Assembly (NCBI RefSeq): GCF_008831285.2
Contig: NC_045147.1
Location: 16,594,854 to 16,658,853 of the forward strand
From: Nymphaea colorata
Lineage: Eukaryota > Streptophyta > Magnoliopsida > Nymphaeales > Nymphaeaceae
Length of the DNA stretch: 64,000 bases
Direction: 5' to 3'
Both the position numbers and the translations under genes were made by a program. The notes below the pieces were generated by a model. The model saw nothing but the letters and a program-made list of their open reading frames with translations. It had not been told where the DNA came from and searched no databases. This document shows, one piece after another, positions 38,699-51,383 of this stretch; the first letter of the stretch is position 1; the number at the start of each line of letters is the position of its first letter.

Positions 38699-41600
38699 AT
38701 GGAGCGCGCTCTCTCCCTCGCTCGGCCGCCGGCTGTCTCCGGCGATTTCCCTTCGCTCACAACACTCCGGTCACCTCTCCATTCTCGGGCGCTAATTTCG
38801 CTCCCCTCCGAAGGTGGTCGTTTTTCCTCTGGCTAGCTATCTTTTCATTTTGGCATTTGCTTATCTTTTGTTTCTCGGCGGAACAGATTTACTGCAATTT
38901 CGTGCGGGCGGAGTGAAGGCGATCTCGGCCAGGGGGTTTCGGCCGCTGCGTGCCGCTTCTGCTGCCGGGGTCGACGAGATTGGTGTTGTGGCGGCTGTGG
39001 AAGGGAGGCGGAATTCTGGTCCGATCATTGTGATAGATAACTACGACAGCTTTACTTACAACCTCTGCCAGGTACTTTGTCTTTGGTGTGTTCTCTATCT
39101 TATGCCCTCCTGAGTCGTCTGACGATCACATTTGCATAATTTTTCTTTTACGTTCGCCCCTCTTATTTGCGTTTGTTTTGGCATCTCCTTTTTTGAGAGT
39201 TTTTCAGTCACCGGTGACGAATTTCCCGTTTCAATTTCTTTTGTCCGGGATACGACTTCCGGTAACCCATCGGTGATGGATTTGGTTCCACCCCCACCAA
39301 CACCACACCCAACCACCTCGCGAGCTTTTTCTTCGTGCCGTGCCGTCCACTACACTACATTTGTTTCTCACTTCCTTCCTTTCTGCCTCTCATTCTGCTC
39401 ACTCGGCCTCAGTGTTTGGAATCTGGATTCTATGTGACGAATTGGGGAGGGATCTGATTCTTCTCCGTGAGAAATTTTAATCCCCACCCTTTCATAAAAG
39501 TAAGTTTTAGGAAACTTCATATATTTTTGAATCTTATGATACAAGCCTATTGAGTCATTGACTATTAATAGCTAGTGGCTACCGTCACTGTTCCTTTCAA
39601 GGATGGTGGGTCTGGTCCTTCACTGGGTTCCTTGTCATGGTCCCTGGCTTTGGGCCATAACATTCGACCTTCTCGGGCAGCAATGGCGAGTGAACGGAAA
39701 ATTCAAAACATGTGTGCGTTGTTTTAGATTATGGCCGAATTTTACGCGTCCCTAAAAGAAATTCTTCAGTGGTCATTATTCACGTTCAACGGTAAAAGTC
39801 AAACGTGGGGGCCCCAGGTTGCTCCCTGGAGGCCGCATGTCGATTGCCGGGAGCGAGAAATTTCTGTCTAGCGCTCAGAGCTTAAACTTTAAATTTTGAA
39901 GGGCATCTATTTACAATACGTAAATAGGTAAAACCTTGTATATAAATACTTGTGTGGGCAAATGGCCCAAACATGGCTGCCCCGCTGGTCGTCCTCGCGT
40001 CGTTGCTGCCATTCGTAAAGGAGAAAAAAAATTTTAGACTTTTGGAGGCATCGTTTATTCCCATGTTTAAACCAGCGAATCTTTTGTAATTTACAATCAA
40101 GATTCACCAACACGGGAAAAGAAGAAATTGTAGCGTGTTTGAATCGCCATCATATTTTGTGGTTCTTCAGGATAAATGCATTTAGCAAATAAAGGAGATT
40201 TATCAAAGAGGATCAACTTTGACATATGTCTACCTGACTACATGCACATGTAATGATCAAGAACCAAATTACATCATAAATTGATTGAATCAGACTGCTT
40301 TCATTGAAATCTGACAGGAAGTACTCAGTCTGATGTATGAAGAACATGGTGGAAAACCATGTACTTTATTCCCACGTAGATTTTACCAAAAACTTTCCCC
40401 GTGAAATGCTTTATCTATAGCCTAGTCCCACCTTGTTATACTTCCAACCTGAATTGGTAGTTTCTTTCCTATGGAATGTAATGGATCCTGGATATAAATA
40501 TTCTTTTGTTCTCATCCATTTCAGAAATATCATAAGTGCATGCATATAAGATCATAACGTTAACGCCTAATCCATCCTTTTGAGATCCTTGATTGTATGG
40601 AGCCTTTCGATACTTGGTGCAATTAATTGATTTGGCCAGAACTTAATATCAGGAAATCTCGTGCATATATGCATATACGATCATTTTGCCTAATATATGT
40701 TTTTATGAGCTTTGGTTGTCTGTAGATTTTCTATATTGACTGCAATTAATTGATCCAGCCATCTATTCTGAACTTACATAACAGAGTTTGCTAATATAGA
40801 ATAGAACTGATACGTCATTCATTTTATTGTTTTGCTATGGCATTGGCAGTATATGGGAGAACTTGGCGCTGACTTTGAGGTCTACCGCAATGATGAACTT
40901 ACAGTTGACGAAATCAGAAGGTGAATTGCCTTTTTTTTTTCTTAGAATTATCTATAGTACTGTATTTCCTTGGCTTCACTTGTCTTGAATTTTGAACAAC
41001 GTTGTCGTCCTCCTTTTAGGAAAAATCCAAGAGGAATACTTATTTCTCCAGGACCTGGTAAGTGTTGTCAATTGGTCTGAAGTCTTTCTTTGTAATATGC
41101 TCTTGTTGAAATAAGTTACAAGTAATTTCCTTGCCTTTCTAATCTAGGTACACCTCAAGATTCAGGGATATCACTGCAAATTGTTCTCGACCTTGGACCC
41201 TCCACACCCATATTTGGAGTTTGTATGGGACTTCAGTGCATTGGAGAGGCTTTTGGAGGCGAGGCCTTTAACTAGGGACATCTTTTAATTCTACGACATT
41301 TATTTTTTTATTTTTTATTATTTTAATGCTCTAAGCAGTGTTGTACGATACGGGGCTGGTACGTACGATACGATACGTATCTTTTACAAAATACGATACG
41401 ATACATGCCCCGTATCGTACGATACAGACTGATTTCAAAAAATGGGGGTTGGAACCCCCCTTTTCGAGTTTTTTTTATAAAAACCCGGCCCTTCTTCGTT
41501 TTTAACCTAGAGATTGTGCTGCCGTGGAGGAAAATTATCGATTTCCATCGTTAAATCATCGATTTTCAAAATGAAATCATCGATTAAACCATGGATTTGT

Positions 41601-44600
41601 GCGTGGGTGGCTGATTCTCGTTGGGAGGAAGGAGGTTTTTTTAAATCGTGAAGATGAAAATGAAGAAGAAGATGGAGATGAGGATGAGAATGAATATGAT
41701 GAAGATTATGAATGAGAGTCGAGAGTGCTTTCATTTTATATGTATTGACATTGAACATTTTCACAATTTCATTATCATCTTGTGATGTAATACATAACAT
41801 CTAAAATTTGTTTTTTGATGTGGTATCTCATAGACTTATGGACCTTATGACTTATAAATCTGTGTTTTTTATGAAGAACATATTATTCTTGTTTTTTACT
41901 GATTTTTTATGATTTTTTTGATTTTTTTTCCTATTTTTACTGATTTATTAAAAAAAAATGATACGGTTACGATACGTTACGATATTTTACGATACAGCGT
42001 ATCTTAAAGCCAGACTGATACGGCTTACGATACGCTTTTTACAACATTGGCTCTAAGTACACTAGCTTATTTCATTGTTAGGGCTTGCCTTTTTGTTTAC
42101 GTATTTCTTTTGAATGTCAATGTTGAATTAACGTTTGAACTTTAAATGGTTCGCCAAACAATGTGTTTTGGGAGTTTTTTTTTTCCTTATTTAGTTCATT
42201 TATTTACTAATTTACAGGGAAGATTATTCGTTCTCCTTATGGGGTTGTGCATGGAAAAGGTTCACTTGTTTATTATGATGAAAAAGGAGAAGATGGCTTA
42301 CTTGCTGGACTGTCAAAGTAAGTAAAAACCTTTCATCTACCTGGAACTTGGTTTTATATATTGCCTATTAGGATGATTGTGCTTGTTCATGTACATGAAC
42401 ATATACAGCATCACAACAAGTATTAGGTATAGACTTCCACCTAGATAGCTATGGAGTTAGAAATATGACCTCCAAGTTGAACGAGGTCAAGAGCTGGATA
42501 CATGGGTTGTTCTCCTGCATAAATGTGGCAGGGGTCTGCCTAAGCTAGCCCATCATTGCAAAAAAGATGGCAAACAGATATCTAGTTATCAACGAAAGGT
42601 TGATGACCATCAGTGAAATATTTTGCCAAATCTATTGTGGCTTGCCACTACAAAGAAATGCGTCACAGATACAGCATCAAGTTATTGAAACCCCTTTGTA
42701 GAGGGGAGGAAGTTTCGAAGGAAATTGCTTGATAAACCATCCTGTTCAGAACTGGCTGGCATCCACATTCACTTGCATTGTCATTGCAAATTTGCTAGAA
42801 AGTCAATGCTATTAATAATGTAAAAGTTGAAAGCAGTGTGGTACGAATCAACGGATGACGTTCTGAAAGAAGTTGCTTGATAAACCATCCTGTTCAAAAC
42901 TGGCTGGCAGCCACATTCACTTGCACTGGCACTGAACTCGTCAAAAAGTTCACACTATTACTCATATAAAAGCTGGAAATGCTATGATACTAGGAAACAA
43001 ATACAGACACAACCAAACAAAAGATAAACGTGATTTCTTTGGCAAATATGTTTATTGAGTGTACAAAGATACTTTCAGAACATTCAAGTCATTTAACTTC
43101 TGAAACCATTTATTTACAGATCACTGACATGAGCTGATGAAATAGGCAGATGTGTTTTTTCTTTGCATGAATATCATTATGAAGACTTTTTCTAACTTAT
43201 GGAAATTGTAAAAATGCTTTGACAGTCCATTTACAGCAGGTCGATATCACAGCCTTGTGATTGAGAATGAGACTTTTCCTAGAGACATGCTTGAGATCAC
43301 TGCACGGACCGAAGATGGTCTTGTTATGGCAGTCCGTCATAAAAGATATAAGCACATCCAGGTATTCTCTTTTTCATGTCTAATCTAAGCACGTCCAGGT
43401 ATTCTCTTTCTCATGTCTAAGCTACAGTAATACATCTGAGTTTTTTGTGCTCCAAGTACAAACAAGATGTGGGCCAGTGGCTATTCTCCTCCTCATAAGC
43501 ACAGAACTGTATATAATCCCGTTTTCTACAAAAGAGTTGGATACATCATAAACAATTTCAGAAATAAGACTAGGGAAGTGAATTCAATTAGTAACATAGG
43601 GAAATTCGTCAAGTTTGGAGATGGTGGAGATTGCTTCATTTTCTTGTGATGGACAAGATTGTTTGATAATAATAAGTTTTCTTTGTAATGGTTCAACCCC
43701 AGAGGTTTGTTCTTTTATTAAACCAGATTTTATCTCAATTGTTTCATTTGTCTCCTTCACATCCATGCAGTTGTACCAGATTTTATCTCAATTGTTTCAT
43801 TTGCCTTTACAATATGTTGGATGCGGGAGACCAGATTCTAGTGGATGCATGATGCCATGACCTACAAAAATTTTGAAACATTTAAGGTGCTATATTTCTA
43901 TAGCAGTGATGGCCTTAGGTTCATGAACTTTAGCCATTAGTCACTATTTGGGTTGATATTAAGATGTGGTGCTATATTTCTATAGCAGTGATGGCCTTAG
44001 GTTCATGAACTTTAGCCATTAGTCACTATTTGGGTTGATATTAAGATGTGTACACTTCCTTGGTGCTGCGGAATGCAGAAAAATTCACTTCCAATGGGAG
44101 TGACTCGCTTTGGCTTGACATAAAAAGTATTGTTATGTGAGCCTAGTCTGCATGAATAAAATTATAGGATATGATGGTCATGGCTATGCGGGTTAGTTTG
44201 CATGTAGTACCATATGGTAATTGGTACCGATGCTGTTTATGATGTTGCTGTCACATGCTATGAAATGAAATCATCATTTTTGATAGTCAGTGATGGTCAT
44301 AAGCTCATAATGTGACAGATTGACAGCTCATTTATTGCTGGTTTATAATTGAAATTCTTAATAATTGATGACAAACCTCTCTAGCAGATGTAGTCTGACC
44401 ACCGCCTGTAAATGCAAATGGCAAACTGACATAAGCAGTTTCAATCAGTGGCAGAGCCATACTGGTATCTGGACAAATTGGTTCCTCCCATGCTTTCCTT
44501 GATTTTCACTTTCCCAACCTCAAATGCGGGACCAGATTAACCCTGAATCCAACCATGTAGGTGCTCACCAGGTTTGTCAGCAGGTTGGTCTAAGAAACAA

Positions 44601-47600
44601 GGTACCACATTGGGCTTGATTAACAAATGGGTTGTGTGTGGCATAGGAAATTTCATACCAAAACCAAGCTTGACTCAAGTTCTTTAATACAAAAAGCATA
44701 GAAATTGTTACACTACCAGTTATGGACTGGGTTCGGCTTGCATTTTATTAATCGAACTTGGCGTGGTCATTCTCATCTAAAATCCAATAGGATGTAGATT
44801 TGTATATAAGGCTAACACCTCTTAGTGCTCACTCTAATTTGGATTTTTTATCTCTATCACTAGTTCCAACATAAACAGATGCAACAAAGAAAGAAAAAAT
44901 TATTGTGAGAGACTTATTATTAAAAAACATGTTCATGTTCATCTTTATGGAAATTTTGTCCATGTATTGCAACTGGGAGTTTAGCCAGTTTGCCTCTTCA
45001 AGACATGCAGCTGTGAACTTCATATAGGTCTCGTTTCTCTATGCCACTAGTCATCACAGCCATGTGCTACTGTAGCATAGACTTTAATGGTTCAAAAGAA
45101 TCGAGTCATCACTTTTGTGGCTACGTGGGTACATATGTCTTGACATCTCTGATTCTCCAAGGACAAGCTTCTACCTACATTTGAGGTGAAACCATTGCAG
45201 GGAAGGTGTGTTTTCCCTACAAAATGATCTGGTGCATTCTTCCTTGGGAAGTGCAGTTTCTATGAAGCACAATTTCCTCCTCTTACAGCAATTTCTAATA
45301 TCCTGATCAGCAAGGAATCCATGGCTAATTTGTATATCCAAATTTTCTTGTTTTCACTTCACCAATTGTAGCTGTTGGTCTGATTTATGATGATTGTAAT
45401 AGAAGGGACTTGAAAGGTGCTTGGCTGGGATTGACATGCAAAAATCGATGGTGTGAACTGGAACATTAAGTTGAAGGAATTGAAGACAAAAAAAGGAAAA
45501 AACAAAGGAGCTAAATACTTGAGCTATTGGTTCAGTAGACCAGGGACTATTCCTTGGACCTTACCAAGTTGGAAAATCCTAGGATGCATGGCTTATTTGG
45601 ATGTAGCTGTCTAAGGCACAGAGTTGGAAAATTCAATGTCAACTGATGTAACAAATCTCTCTGGACAAGTGAACAAGAATACTAAAATGCATTTTCGTGG
45701 AGATGAAGAATCTACATGATGCTGTTGCCTTGATTTATAGGCTAGAAGGTTATGCAAGATGCAACAGTTACTAAGTCTTGCATCAAGATGGAGCAGGAGA
45801 TGAGAGGAAGAGCTTATGTAATTGGGTGTGGCAGTACAAGCACATGCACACATATACTGAACAAGGTTACTTTTCAGATCATCCTAAATGGCATCCGTGA
45901 GCAAAGCTGTGGATGTTTGTTTCACCTAACCTTGAGGATGCATTTTCTAAAGGTTGCTTTGAAGAAAGCACGTAACAGACTAGGTATTTCTTGGTCAAAT
46001 GTACATGCAGGGAAATGAACCATTAATTTTATATTGCACTAAAACTTCCTCAAATAGTAATAAGAGATTCTTGGGAACATATATTAAGAAGAATGAGCAA
46101 CGATTGACATCAGAATCCTGGATATGTTTTAGCAAAAAATGCTTGCAAGCTTGTCTTTTACAAGTGTGCAGGACATTAGAATTTAGAATAGAATTGCTTA
46201 AAAGTTGTGTGCAAGCGAGTTAGCTGCAAACTGATAGGATTTTCATCCTTCCATTCTTGCTGGTACAATGCTTGCAGGACTTCTACGAAAATGATATGAA
46301 CTATGTCACACGGATACGGGTACGGGTATCCTATGGATACGGGTACGGGTACGGGGACACGACATTTTCAAAATTTTAGGATACGCGGATACGGCGAATA
46401 TTATATTCAAAAAAATTAAAAATGATAATAAAGAAAGTCTCAAACAAAACATTGTTCATCACCAATCTCAAAAGTGATAACTACTAAGACATAAGGAAGA
46501 AAGTCTCAAAGAAAGTTACAAAACATTATTCATCAATCATCACAAAACATTGTTCATCATCATTCTAGTCATCATCAATGCCCAAATCATCGTTCTCCCC
46601 AATCTCCTCTTCTTCCACAATAGAAGATGTTGAGGGAATACAAGGTTCTTCGAATCTTGAATTAACAACTTCAAGTTCATTCTCTTGTTCTAAGTTAAAG
46701 TCGTCAACATTCACGTCCCAATATTTAGTTTCTCCTTCCCTACAAGACAAAAAAATTGTAATTATTATGATGTTAGCGAATAAGAAGAGAAACATCTAAA
46801 TCAATAAATCATATACTTAATTTACCTATATTCTTCTTTGTTCCGTGATAGAAGCCGAAGGTTAGAATGCACATAAACCAGATTTTCTGCACGTTTGCTT
46901 GTGAGATTATTTCGTTTTATAGTGTGGATTTGTGAATATGTACTCCAATTTCTCTCACTGCATGAAGATGTAGCAGGTTGAACTAGCAATCTGAAAGCAA
47001 GGTATTGAAGAGTAGGATAAGCAGTTCCATGTTTAATCCACCAAGATAAAGATGGATAATTATCTTTGTCTACAGTTGCACCTACATCTTCTCCAATTCC
47101 AGTAGAAAACCTTTCAAACTCATCATTAGCTCGGCGATTTTGATGTACATCAATGAAAATCCTATTAATACATGCTACTCTGTTTGTTGATAATTCTAGA
47201 TCCAGATGTGGTGGGGTTCTTCCAACACCCCCTGTAAGCCACTTTTTTCCATAATATTTAGGATTTAATGTATGTGCCATGCATTGAAGAGGATTGCTAC
47301 TTTTATCCCATCTTGCAATCAATATTCTATGCACATGATCAAAAAATGCTGAATCTTCAAGTGCAATACTTTTTTTTTCATGCTTAAAAATAACCTCTTG
47401 GATTTTTTCAATCATAGTGTCCCACATCTCATACACACAGTGCAACGTTGAATTATCACAATCAAGAACTCTCAACATCTCCCAGATCGGCTCTGTGAAT
47501 GCAAGAAAATAAAAGATTTGATCCCACCACTTGTCTTCAAGAATCATTCCTTTGATTGCTTGAGCTTTGTCATCATCATCAGCACGGTAGAAACTCCAAT

Positions 47601-50600
47601 CATCATCAGTCACCATACTGATCAATGCACTTTTCACCCTTTTTATCCTTTTGACCATAACAATTAGAGATGCAAAACGTGTCTCTGCAACTCTTAATAA
47701 TTTTAGATCAGAATGCTTGTTATAAATGGAAAGTGCATGTTGATGATTTACTATGAAATTTCTGATGTTCCTCACATCCTTTTCCAAGTCTTCAATCCAC
47801 GAACATAATTCATAAGCATGAGGATCTTGCTCTTTACTTGGTGGATTGCATATACTCTTTAGAGCCAAATTTAAACTATGAACTGCACAAGAAGTCCAAA
47901 AGATATGAAGGTACTCCTTTTCTATCGCAATACCAGCTGCTCTACATACAGGTGCATTGTCTGTAATTAGCTGAACAACGTTTTCTTTCCCCACTTCTTC
48001 AATTATTTCCATAAACAATCCTTTCAGATACTCAGCACTTTTGTATTCACCAGATGCATCTATTGCTTTCAAGAAAATTGGTCCATTTGCTGAAGTTGCA
48101 ATGAAATTAATAAGAGGGCGTCGTTGCAAATCTGTCCAGCCATCAGAAACAATAGAAACTCCGTGTTGATCCCAAGTGAACTTTTGAGACTCTAACAATT
48201 TGTTCACTCGAGTCATCTGTTGTTCTAGTAGTACAGTGCGAAGCCTTTCAGAACTAGGGGGAACATACCCAGTCAAGTTAGAATTTGCAATAGATGTAAC
48301 TAAGTCTCTCCAATATGGACTTCTAGCTACATTAAATGGTATGCAATTAGCATAGAAAAATGTCGCCACTTTTAGATCTAATTCTCGCCGTCCTTGTAAA
48401 CTAAATGAATCCTTAATTGATTTCTGATGAACATCAACAACTTTTCTTTTTTTGGTAGGATTCTGAATATCATCATGTAAAATTGAAGCAATGTCAATGA
48501 AACCAGATCCAGATGATGTGCTTTTCTTATTCTCAAAGGCTTTTTGTTCTTTCTTCAACTGAGCCAAAGTCTCGTTAGTGATTTTCTTACATGGTTGAAT
48601 TCCTTTTTGACTGATTTTTAATAGATGTGCTTTCACTCTTGTATATGATCCATTGAACTGTCCTTCACAAAAATTACACCTAAAAAAAGCATTTCCACCG
48701 CCTCCAGGAGGTTTCCCCATTAGATTCACGTATGACCATAATGGTGGCTGAGGTGTAGCTGATCCAGAACCACAACTTGTAGGTTGAGAGTCTTGAGACT
48801 GAGACACTGTTTTTCCTTTGCTCGCCATACTAGATTAAACATAATAAAAAAACGGAAAAAACGTATAATGAACATAAAATTTATGAAATAAAACAATACA
48901 ACAAATGACAAAGTATAAACATGCACTGCAGTCACAAAACTTCAGATATTCAGAAGCAGAACGAAGGCTGAATAGTGAACAGGAACATCCAAGAATTGTA
49001 AATGATAGTACTGCCAGACTGAATAGTGAACAGGAACAGAAGCAGTTCGTTAAAGCCTAAAACTAAAAGAAACATGAACAATAGCGAAGGCTGAAGTGAA
49101 TAGATTAGTGAACAGTGAACATGAACATTCACGAATGGTAAATTATATGTTAATGTCATCTAGATATCACGTATTCATCATTGTCTAGCATCATGAACAA
49201 CAGCTAAGGCAAAATCCCCAAATCGGTTATACACCCAAAACGGCAAAATCCCCAAATCCCAAAATCAAACAAAAACAAGAAAACATCGCACATAGCATTG
49301 AAGAATATGATTCTAAACCGTCCAATCTTCAAACCAAAACATCCCCAAATCAGATTTTAATACCCAATGTAAAAAATCCCCAAATAAAAGTTGAAACCCT
49401 AACTTCTATTATCGAAAATAATCGACAAAACACCTACCTGCCTGTCGCTGGCTGCCGCCGGACGCCACCGGAAGTCGCCGTCGATCGCCGGAGCTCGCCG
49501 TCGCCCGCCATTGGCTTACTGTGCTGCCAGCCTGCTGCGTTAGCCGTGGAGGGTAAACGAAGGTCGAGCGTCGAGGGTAGATGTTAGTGCGTAAAACAAA
49601 ACGCGGGTTAAAAAATCAGTTATACAAGTGGTTTGGATCGGGTCTGACCTAGACCCGATCCAAAACGTATCCAGCCGTATCGCCGTGTCGGGATCCCCGT
49701 GTCCGCGTGTCGACACCGGTACTCGACCCAGTCTGCCGTATCCGTGTGACATAGGATATGAATGAGTTCTCTGTTATGATAGTTTCTTATTTTCCTTATC
49801 CTATGAAAATGTAGTGACAGCTTTCGGTGCTTAAGGGTTTCAGGATTTTAGTATATCCTACTCCAAAAACTTTTTCATCCATCTTATGGATTATCTTCTT
49901 TTGAGTGTCATACAAGATTAATAGAATTGTTTTTCAATTTTTACATTTCCTTATTGTATTCTATTTTTTTTCCTTTGAGATCTTCCTGGAAGAATCAAAA
50001 TCAGTTTATCCCAAGAAATTGCTGGGACGAAGTTTTTCATCCCTGCATAATAATGTGGTTCTTCCAAGTGGCAACCATATTAGTTTGTCATACTCTATAT
50101 GTGTGTATGTGTGTGTGTAATATATGCTATCTATAATATGATCCCTAGCATGCGATCCAGAACTGTTGAGTGTCTTTTACATTGGAATAATAATGACACA
50201 CTAATTGTAGATGTGTAAATCGGATCCCATAAGCCAAATAAGTTCAAACTGTTGATTAGGGCTCCTATTAACTGCGATTTATGCATCACAAAAGGATGAT
50301 TTTCTTTATTTATAGGACTTTGGACATGTAGTTTGCATCTATATGGTCAGATTTGTGAAACTACAGATTTATAGTGTTAACATGATGGATAACAAAATTG
50401 AGAGTTTGGGGTTGTTTCATTACATTGTTATCAGATTTTGAAATATATTTTTGTATGAATCAGAGCATTTCCTATTGTGAATAGAGAACAGAAATTCATC
50501 ATTTTCTTGTCTGCCTAATAAAATTAAGAAAGCCATGAGAATGTCTTGTATTGCATAATAAGAGGTATTTTGATTGCATGTGCTTATTTTTTTTACGTTA

Positions 50601-51383
50601 CTATTAAAAATTGTAAAGGTGCTGGAAAATTTCATGAATGTTCCTGTGAACCCCCTTTAGTGTTGTTGTTGTTATTATTATTATTATTATTATTATTTGG
50701 GGTCTGCTGGAATGACAAGCTGGGTCTAGGGAAATTGCTTCCAGATTTCTCCAATAGTTGTACTTGAGTATTGAACCCTTGACCCTTTTCAGCTTGACCA
50801 TATCAACTCCAAATCCCTAGGGTGAACAGGCTATTGTACCTACTCTCTTTAGATTTAGTCGGAAGAAAAGGTGGATTTTACTAGTTTAAAGCTGTAATCT
50901 TATCTCAACCCCTGAAACACAAAAACAAACGTGCACACAGAGGGACACGATTGGATGCACATGTGAACATATTAACTTGGGAAAGATTGACTGCCTGACA
51001 TATCTCTTAATAATGGTTTGACATGGTTTTAATTACTGTGTACCAATGCCAGACCGATTTCATACTAATTTTGTTTCCAAGCAATGTTTGATCCCGTTAT
51101 GGATACTCAATCCAATCCACTTGGCCAAAGAATCTATTTAACATTATGAGGTCTCTCTTTTTGTAGGGCCTTTGATCATTACAGCTTGCTCGTTATCTCA
51201 TTTGTCATTATTGTTCTCTCCCTATCCCTTACCATTCCAACTGTGGTGACCATGATTGTTCTGTACATATGTGCCTTGCAGGGGGTCCAGTTCCATCCAG
51301 AAAGCATCATAACTAGTGAAGGCAAAACAATCGTCCGCAATTTCCTCGAACTTATTGAGAAGAGGGAGAAGGAATCGGAATAA
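38699..51383 (+). CDS. ASB: Anthranilate synthase beta subunit, plastid (glutamine amidotransferase)
   Basis: It supplies ammonia from glutamine to the anthranilate synthase alpha subunit, the first step of tryptophan synthesis from chorismate, in plastids. Eight exons join in phase: 38699-38813, 38887-39071, 40850-40920, 41020-41057, 41148-41258, 42218-42317, 43226-43361 and 51282-51383, giving about 285 residues. Residues 1 to about 80 are Ser/Arg/Ala-rich with few acidic residues, as in a transit peptide. The class-I amidotransferase domain follows: IIVIDNYDSFTYNLCQ, PRGILISPGPG, nucleophile Cys162 in FGVCMGLQC, and His257/Glu259 in VQFHPES. Exon 5 ends before GC, so intron 5 is apparently GC-AG; reading through gives a stop within six codons. 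Introns 5 and 7 each hold a hAT transposon. The start is the first ATG giving a transit-like leader; it needs the short 73-bp intron 1. Confidence 0.95.
39072..40849 (+). other. ASB intron 2 (1.8 kb)
   Basis: Between the exon ending TYNLCQ and the exon starting YMGELG. A GC-rich patch at 39800-39850 includes CCAGGTTGCTCCCTGG, a small stem. No coding content and no defined transposon. Confidence 0.7.
41336..42049 (+). mobile_element. Non-autonomous hAT element in ASB intron 5
   Basis: A 714-bp element flanked by a perfect 8-bp duplication GCTCTAAG (41328-41335 and 42050-42057). Ends are short inverted repeats: left CAGTGTTGTA, right (reverse complement) CAATGTTGTA. Both subterminal regions are packed with TACGATACG motifs. 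Inside, 41650-41715 reads as a very acidic peptide ending in a stop (EDENEEEDGDEDENEYDEDY), like the acidic tail of a hAT transposase. It therefore looks like an internal-deletion copy keeping the 3' end of the gene. It sits 77 bp after the intron's 5' splice site. Confidence 0.85.
42725..43000 (+). repeat. Diverged tandem duplication, 148-bp period, ASB intron 6
   Basis: TTGCTTGATAAACCATCCTG starts at 42725 and again at 42873, and the following roughly 110 bases remain alignable with substitutions. This is an older duplication than the other two in this gene. Confidence 0.75.
43350..43423 (+). repeat. 37-bp tandem duplication across the exon 7 splice donor of ASB
   Basis: Copy 1 (43350-43386) starts AAGCACATCCAGGTATTC and copy 2 (43387-43423) AAGCACGTCCAGGTATTC. 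Each contains the exon end CCAG and donor GTATTC. The first donor (exon end 43361) keeps the family sequence KHIQ/GVQFHPES. Use of the second (exon end 43398) would add 37 bases with a stop. Confidence 0.9.
43886..44049 (+). repeat. Perfect 82-bp tandem duplication, ASB intron 7
   Basis: Copies 43886-43967 and 43968-44049, each starting GGTGCTATATTTCTATAGCA, show no mismatch. Lack of divergence suggests a recent origin or an assembly artefact. Confidence 0.93.
44050..46292 (+). other. ASB intron 7, part left of the hAT element
   Basis: Intron sequence without recognised coding exons. A CAGTGGCAGAGCCATACTGG block at 44446-44465 resembles the 'GGAGCCA' repeat ends elsewhere in the window. Open frames at 45752-46223 have no recognisable domain. 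Confidence 0.55.
46301..49754 (-). mobile_element. Complete hAT transposon in ASB intron 7
   Basis: A 3,454-bp element with identical 19-bp terminal inverted repeats: CTATGTCACACGGATACGG at 46301-46319 and its exact reverse complement at 49736-49754. It is flanked by a perfect 8-bp target-site duplication GATATGAA (46293-46300 and 49755-49762), the hAT hallmark. Subterminal DNA has clustered GGATACGGGTACGGG-type motifs on the left and CCGTATC/CCGTGTC motifs on the right, as hAT transposase binding regions often do. The transposase runs on the - strand with a GC-rich leader at 49440-49520. Perfect ends, perfect duplication and an open transposase all point to recent insertion and possible autonomy. 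Confidence 0.96.
46565..48828 (-). CDS. hAT-family transposase with BED zinc finger
   Basis: Cut-and-paste transposase. Two exons, 48828-46826 and 46739-46565, are joined across an 86-bp intron (donor ATAG/GTAAAT, acceptor TTGTAG), giving about 725 residues. An N-terminal BED-type zinc finger uses C51, C54, H68 and C80. A DUF659-like RNase-H region follows with SDGWTD (Asp229), ITDNAPVCRAAG (Asp290) and the CxxH motif WTSCAVHSLNLALK. The C-terminal hAT dimerisation region contains CSERNWSTYSQIHTIKR with the expected catalytic Glu625. The second exon adds a very acidic tail ending GIDDD. No stop or frameshift interrupts it. If the intron is retained, the protein ends at residue 668 with only the acidic tail missing. 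It lies antisense to the host gene. Confidence 0.93.
49763..51281 (+). other. ASB intron 7, part right of the hAT element
   Basis: AT-rich intron DNA leading to the last ASB exon (acceptor TTGCAG at 51276-51281). It holds a TG run (50101-50118) and a TTG/TTA repeat (50661-50697). No coding exon recognised. Confidence 0.7.
50661..50697. repeat. (TTG)n(TTA)n trinucleotide repeat
   Basis: About 37 bp of TTG units followed by TTA units, inside ASB intron 7. Confidence 0.85.

Follow-up and report, generated by a model that had tools for sequence, protein, structure and literature searches.

Transposons of the hAT superfamily are 2.5-5 kb long and end in terminal inverted repeats of 10-25 bp, according to one account (PMC3942097). 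Hermes, from Musca domestica, generates 8-bp target-site duplications with an nTnnnnAn preference and carries a CCHC finger, and an N-terminal BED finger of CCHH or CCHC type is given for hAT transposases (PMC10368747). BuT2, a Drosophila element of the Tip group, is a several-kb element that coexists with short, end-keeping derivatives resembling miniature inverted-repeat transposable elements and that likewise leaves 8-bp duplications (PMC3942097). The locus compared here with these systems lies in a 64,000-nucleotide stretch of the Nymphaea colorata genome (contig NC_045147.1, positions 16,594,854 to 16,658,853; hereafter the window, meaning the whole stretch that was analysed), where a hAT element of 3,454 bp (46301-49754) occupies the last intron of ASB (anthranilate synthase beta), a tryptophan-synthesis gene. 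We hold it very probable (about 0.93) that this element belongs to a plant hAT family which is present in many copies and was active recently, and that it arrived by a recent cut-and-paste insertion, lying antisense in the intron and probably being spliced out with it. Direct observation of the ends, the duplications, the open frame, the family copies, an occupied and an unoccupied version of one site, and a coding region less changed than its non-coding surroundings underlies this view.

The two ends of the element, which is oriented on the minus strand like its transposase, are inverted repeats of 19 bp, with CTATGTCACACGGATACGG on the left (46301-46319, plus strand) and its exact reverse complement on the right (49736-49754, minus strand); at up to 3 mismatches the window contains just these two matches, and 100 shuffles returned none. 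Directly outside them stand two identical copies of the 8-bp target-site duplication GATATGAA (46293-46300 and 49755-49762), so that both the identical ends and the perfect duplication announced by the original prediction were indeed seen, and the length of the element as well as that of its ends falls inside the hAT range given above. At the left end, on the plus strand, lies a cluster of subterminal repeats of the GGATACGG / GTACGGGT type (46308-46394), which form a putative transposase-binding region. Counted on both strands of the window element, GATACG occurs four times in the left 250 bp, never in the middle and three times in the right 250 bp, and GGATAC five, zero and two times; GTACGG (three copies) and ACGGGT (four copies) are found in the left 250 bp only. 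This distribution is consistent with subterminal sites that the transposase would bind, while GACACG (1, 1 and 3 copies in left, middle and right) and GTGTC (1, 3 and 4) are also found away from the element ends. Across the whole window, Rfam gave no match at gathering thresholds.

The transposase gene, likewise on the minus strand, comprises a coding exon of 2,003 nt that starts with the ATG at 48828 (48828-46826) and encodes the C/C/H/C residues, DUF659, the Asp/Asp/Glu motifs and the hAT dimerisation domain, an 86-nt intron (46825-46740) whose GT..AG borders are retained in all 14 aligned copies, and a last coding exon of 175 nt (46739-46565) that continues the open frame through an acidic tail to the stop. 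The resulting 725 codons over two exons are free of stops, which bears out the open two-exon transposase claimed earlier. A further intron of 608 nt (48830-49437, minus strand) probably interrupts the untranslated 5' leader, as judged from its borders, CAG/GTAGGT...TCTAG/TATGG. In Pfam, the protein matches DUF659 (E 2.5e-46, 157.5 bits) and Dimer_Tnp_hAT (PF05699; E 3.8e-13, 49.5 bits against a cut-off of 21.4), both above cut-off, and in these two domains, as in its 8-bp duplications, the element resembles the plant DUF659 hAT elements. Asp229, Asp290 and Glu625, which we take to be the catalytic residues, are invariant across the seven proteins compared. How well, then, did the predicted Asp/Asp/Glu motifs hold? 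Glu625 stands on the firmest ground, being covered by a significant HMMER match to Hermes (E 3.3e-6); Asp229 is aligned to Hermes solely within a sub-threshold stretch, and Asp290 was identified by motif alone. A search for homologs in viral contigs yielded one pattern match and no confirmed case, and a single-sequence AlphaFold model of the 668-residue exon product was discarded for its mean pLDDT of 34.1.

Compared with Hermes, the element is of similar size (Hermes is about 3 kb), has repeated motifs near its ends, and shares a dimerisation region that holds the aligned Glu at the C terminus, the only part of the transposase that can be aligned significantly by sequence. Hermes has a CCHC finger, and C51, C54, H68 and C80 are conserved in the present family: of the 28 loci spanning these positions, 26 have all four residues (the exceptions being L045 and L051; L047 and L049, whose sequence does not cover the region, stand outside this count). 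The differences concern the ends (19 bp against 17 bp, and CTATGTCACACGGATACGG in sequence), the protein (725 amino acids with DUF659 and an acidic tail against 612 amino acids in Hermes) and the spacing within the putative finger, which is H-x11-C here and H71/C73 in Hermes. BuT2, which is likened here by description only, differs in being an insect element with 12-bp ends, a five-exon gene and a 643-residue transposase (PMC3942097). As for the literature, a search combining DUF659, hAT and terminal inverted repeats returned fungal cases only, and one for the hAT superfamily with zf-BED and DUF659 returned none; a search for the sequence word CTATGTCAC found no hAT element in titles among the matches listed, which does not establish that the family is absent from print.

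Following the family search proposed earlier, copies were sought in the element's own genome assembly (407.8 Mb in 783 contigs), from which all copies discussed here come. The exact 19-bp end occurs 151 times (78 forward and 73 reverse matches, both whole counts), against none for a backward-read control. The left 120 bp of the element has at least 41 matches in the genome, at least seven of them at 100% identity including the window copy, and the transposase has at least 69, of which the first 14 are 98-100% identical and have their first coding exon open; stop codons in 38 of the 69 transposase matches listed mark decayed older relatives. Over its 3,454 bases the window copy differs from its closest sibling, L034, at two positions, from L032 at four, and from L037 and L040 at six each. 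Three further copies, L036, L038 and L039, which are 4-8 bases apart from one another, form a second young group 41-46 bases from the first, and at least two groups have therefore multiplied recently. The alignment of 14 near-full-length copies was made without L035, the outer copy of a nested pair described below, and without L043, an interrupted copy; L039 entered it from position 35 only, where its BLAST match starts, and its exact 19-bp end lies slightly outside (C6:23321914). Twelve of the 14 aligned copies keep the whole frame, which is broken in L048 and L052, and the decayed ends and broken frames that had been named in advance as signs against the original prediction are absent from the young copies.

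Among the matches listed for the 19-bp end (100 of the 151), 30 pairs of ends face each other, 24 of them spanning 345-1,146 bp and six spanning 3,386-3,453 bp, and short derivatives thus outnumber full copies among these pairs. Deletion derivatives accompany full copies in Ac/Ds as well. Several of the short forms are simple internal deletions; L007, for instance, is 835 bp long and matches the left 275 and the right 581 bases at more than 99% identity. Derivatives of 773-796 bp make up ten of the 30 facing pairs among the matches listed, five of them being exactly 790 bp, and are scattered over C1, C2, C5, C6 and C8. This size class may stem from the amplification of one deletion derivative, and local duplication is a possible contributor, a stretch of about 171 kb at the beginning of C6 holding three of its members.

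A comparison of coding and non-coding sites speaks to the recent history of the family. Every one of the 13 copies compared with the window copy shows fewer differences per site in the coding than in the non-coding part, as exemplified by L036 (7 of 2,175 coding against 36 of 1,279 non-coding sites) and L038 (10 of 2,175 against 35 of 1,274), although these comparisons share the window copy as their common partner and are hence not independent. Lower coding divergence of this kind is the pattern left when selection keeps the transposase working from one transposition to the next. The signal is uneven, non-synonymous relative to synonymous change against the window copy ranging over 0.13-0.70 in the ten copies permitting a ratio. 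Among its four nearest siblings, the window copy has just two private bases, at 633 and 1846 of the transposase strand. At plant rates of 1.5e-9 to 1.3e-8 substitutions per site and year, its insertion would have taken place roughly 45,000-390,000 years ago, an estimate with a wide error given that it derives from just two events. Together with the perfect ends and duplication, a closest copy at two differences in 3,454 bases agrees with the recent insertion that had been proposed. The converse, that the insertion is old and has been kept intact by chance or through some use by the host, would draw on the fact that its age is read from copy divergence alone; with so few private bases, and with both ends and the duplication perfect, we regard it as very improbable.

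Identical 8-bp duplications flank 29 of the 33 insertions: 23 of the 25 in a first set, the remaining two having one base different (L044 and L052, 7/8), and six of eight more diverged copies, the others being L046 (7/8) and L045 (6/8). Of the 29 perfect duplications, 20 have T at position 2, 23 have A at position 7, 15 have both, and two have a TA centre; in the first 25, counted without L045, T2 was found in 18 and A7 in 21 (binomial probabilities of 4.8e-5 and 1.2e-7 against a base rate of 0.32). The target of the window copy itself, GATATGAA, has A at position 7, and position 2 is A, not T. TA-centred targets are the mark of the Buster group, and the nTnnnnAn preference of the family, with a TA centre in only 2 of 29, is Ac-like. 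The insertions include one copy that has landed inside the probable leader intron of another on C9 (L034 within L035, G000:C9:23385776-23392690), duplicating GTGAACAG; the aligned pieces of both are 99.5-100% identical to the window copy. That same site is unoccupied in the window copy (49026-49033), and the 20 and 12 bases that flank the nested copy, once rejoined, give the uninterrupted sequence of the window copy. The two loci are thus a direct pair of occupied and unoccupied sites. By homology to Hermes and Ac, the transposase would bind the 19-bp ends together with the subterminal repeats, cut the element out and insert it at a target opened with an 8-bp stagger, preferring nTnnnnAn. By most of the features considered, the element belongs to the hAT superfamily and has the target preference of the Ac type, its finger and its CTATG ends being the exceptions; the family is an ordinary, recently active one of a well-known kind of transposon, with nothing new in kind.

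The host gene reads on the plus strand. Its exons lie at 38797-39071 (the 5' limit being open), 40850-40920, 41020-41057, 41148-41258 and 42218-42317, followed by the penultimate coding exon, which ends in KHIQ (43226-43361), the last intron with canonical splice sites (43362-51281, 7,920 bp) and the last exon (51282-51383), which encodes GVQFHPES...ESE and the stop. The element lies antisense within that last intron, upstream of the HPES exon, just where the original prediction had put it. An extra 5' exon for a transit peptide is likely, so the exon numbers 7 and 8 used earlier may be right. Once joined, the exons reach 190.1 bits with the TIGR00566 trpG_papA model (cut-off 121.05) and also match GATase, other listed equivalog-type models falling under their own cut-offs, which makes the product a class I glutamine amidotransferase of the trpG_papA subfamily by model search. 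TIGR00566 spans the amidotransferases of anthranilate synthase and of aminodeoxychorismate synthase without separating them, and the gene is called ASB because plant aminodeoxychorismate synthase is a fused protein. The gene appears to be single-copy in this assembly, since its final two exons match nowhere but in their own places at E<=0.001, and no second ASB gene was found there with these exons at this threshold. As regards an empty site elsewhere, the assembly contains no second match to the right flank (49763-50400), and none to the left flank (45500-46300) beyond two 46-bp pieces that adjoin each other on C3, so that it offers neither another allele nor a paralog of the site. A literature search found no report of a transposon insertion in an ASB intron.

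The surroundings of the element in ASB hold several further features. The two 46-bp pieces (45768-45813 and 45856-45901 in the intron) stand back to back at G000:C3:28074815-28074906, at 93% identity, and the C3 locus is without the 42 bases that separate them in the window. Upstream of the element, the last intron contains a perfect 82-bp tandem duplication (43886-44049). An earlier intron carries a second hAT-like insertion, of 714 bp (41336-42049). Its ends, CAGTGTTGTA / CAATGTTGTA, are different ones; it is flanked by perfect copies of the 8-bp duplication GCTCTAAG (41328-41335 and 42050-42057), and stretches close to both ends are rich in GATACG. The intron that follows the GVCMGLQCIGEAFG exon (41258-41259) seemingly starts with GC and not GT (TTGGAG/GCGAGG...TTACAG/GGAAGA), as placed from the reading frame.

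Does the insertion matter to its host gene? It might harm ASB, if premature polyadenylation or missed splicing in a 7.9-kb intron led to less enzyme or to a product lacking the HPES exon, and the position of that exon beyond the element, together with the absence of any other match to the last two exons in the assembly, would speak for such damage. The intron has intact, canonical splice sites at its two borders, however, the element is antisense, and the element with its extra duplication accounts for 3,462 of the 7,920 bp, some 4.5 kb being other sequence; moreover, the loss of a tryptophan gene present in one copy would hardly be borne, except by a plant heterozygous for the insertion. Harm to ASB is therefore, in our estimate, improbable. 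Slightly less probable again is the bolder proposal that the family is moving today and that the insertion is a segregating allele which, from within the last intron of the sole ASB gene, alters the supply of tryptophan. More plausibly, the element would be removed with the intron by splicing and leave the enzyme largely unaffected, its effect on ASB being probably slight or neutral.

Several observations weigh against the interpretation offered here, or at least against a textbook version of it. Pfam zf-BED finds no match at E<=1 in the window protein or in any of three relatives (3/3), and the BED finger claimed at the outset was consequently overstated, the putative finger amounting to the conserved Cys/Cys/His/Cys residues only. 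The ends of hAT elements, those of plants included, tend to have A as their second and G as their fifth base; the CTATG of the window element has G5 and lacks A2, which lowers its match to the textbook and nothing more. Nor is this peculiar to the window copy, A being absent from position 2 in all 16 ends of eight diverged copies: both ends read CTATG in L057 and L051, and one end does so in the others, the second end being CTACA in L050, CTACT in L047, CTAAG in L046 and L055, TTATG in L053 and CCATG in L045. Selection on the transposase is not visible within the youngest group, where synonymous and non-synonymous differences from the window copy number 0 and 1 for L032, 0 and 1 for L034, 1 and 2 for L037, and 0 and 3 for L040. 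Lastly, the DUF659 domain of the window protein scores 157.5 bits, which is 3.1 lower than that of L032 (160.6 bits), and the aligned protein of L032 differs from it at residue 307 only, such that the window copy may encode a transposase weakened by a private Leu307.

It is conceivable, though to our minds somewhat less likely than not, that the window copy looks intact and is nevertheless dead, Leu307 having spoiled its transposase so that it could be mobilised, if at all, by its siblings only. Residue 307 lies within EYPHIFWTxCAVH, a few residues ahead of the conserved CxxH motif; among 30 loci, only the window copy has Leu there, 26 having Pro and three distant ones Ser. The family does undergo missense decay, given that L040 and L056 have Tyr in place of Cys314. 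(L040 is young and full-length and L056 an older, broken copy; the residue in question is the conserved Cys of CxxH.) On the other side, the Ser found in three distant homologs means that residue 307 tolerates some change, and Leu307 depends on a single base that could be an assembly error. Because open-frame siblings without Leu307 are present in the genome, transposase supplied by them could plausibly act in trans on the window copy. Of the earlier wording, 'probably autonomous', the open frame stands, and the adverb is weakened by a residue unique among 30 loci; autonomy would be structurally possible for the window copy, yet uncertain, and less safe than for its siblings. Whichever copy supplies the enzyme, a recent cut-and-paste insertion remains our preferred reading of the locus.

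What is the significance of such an element in a water lily gene? For the biology of ASB, it is probably a neutral insertion in an intron. For the family, the locus and its relatives document a recently, and possibly still, active plant hAT family with full copies, short derivatives and at least two young groups, as well as an insertion of one member into another for which the unoccupied reference site is at hand. Both tagging and studies of silencing can make use of active hAT families in plants.

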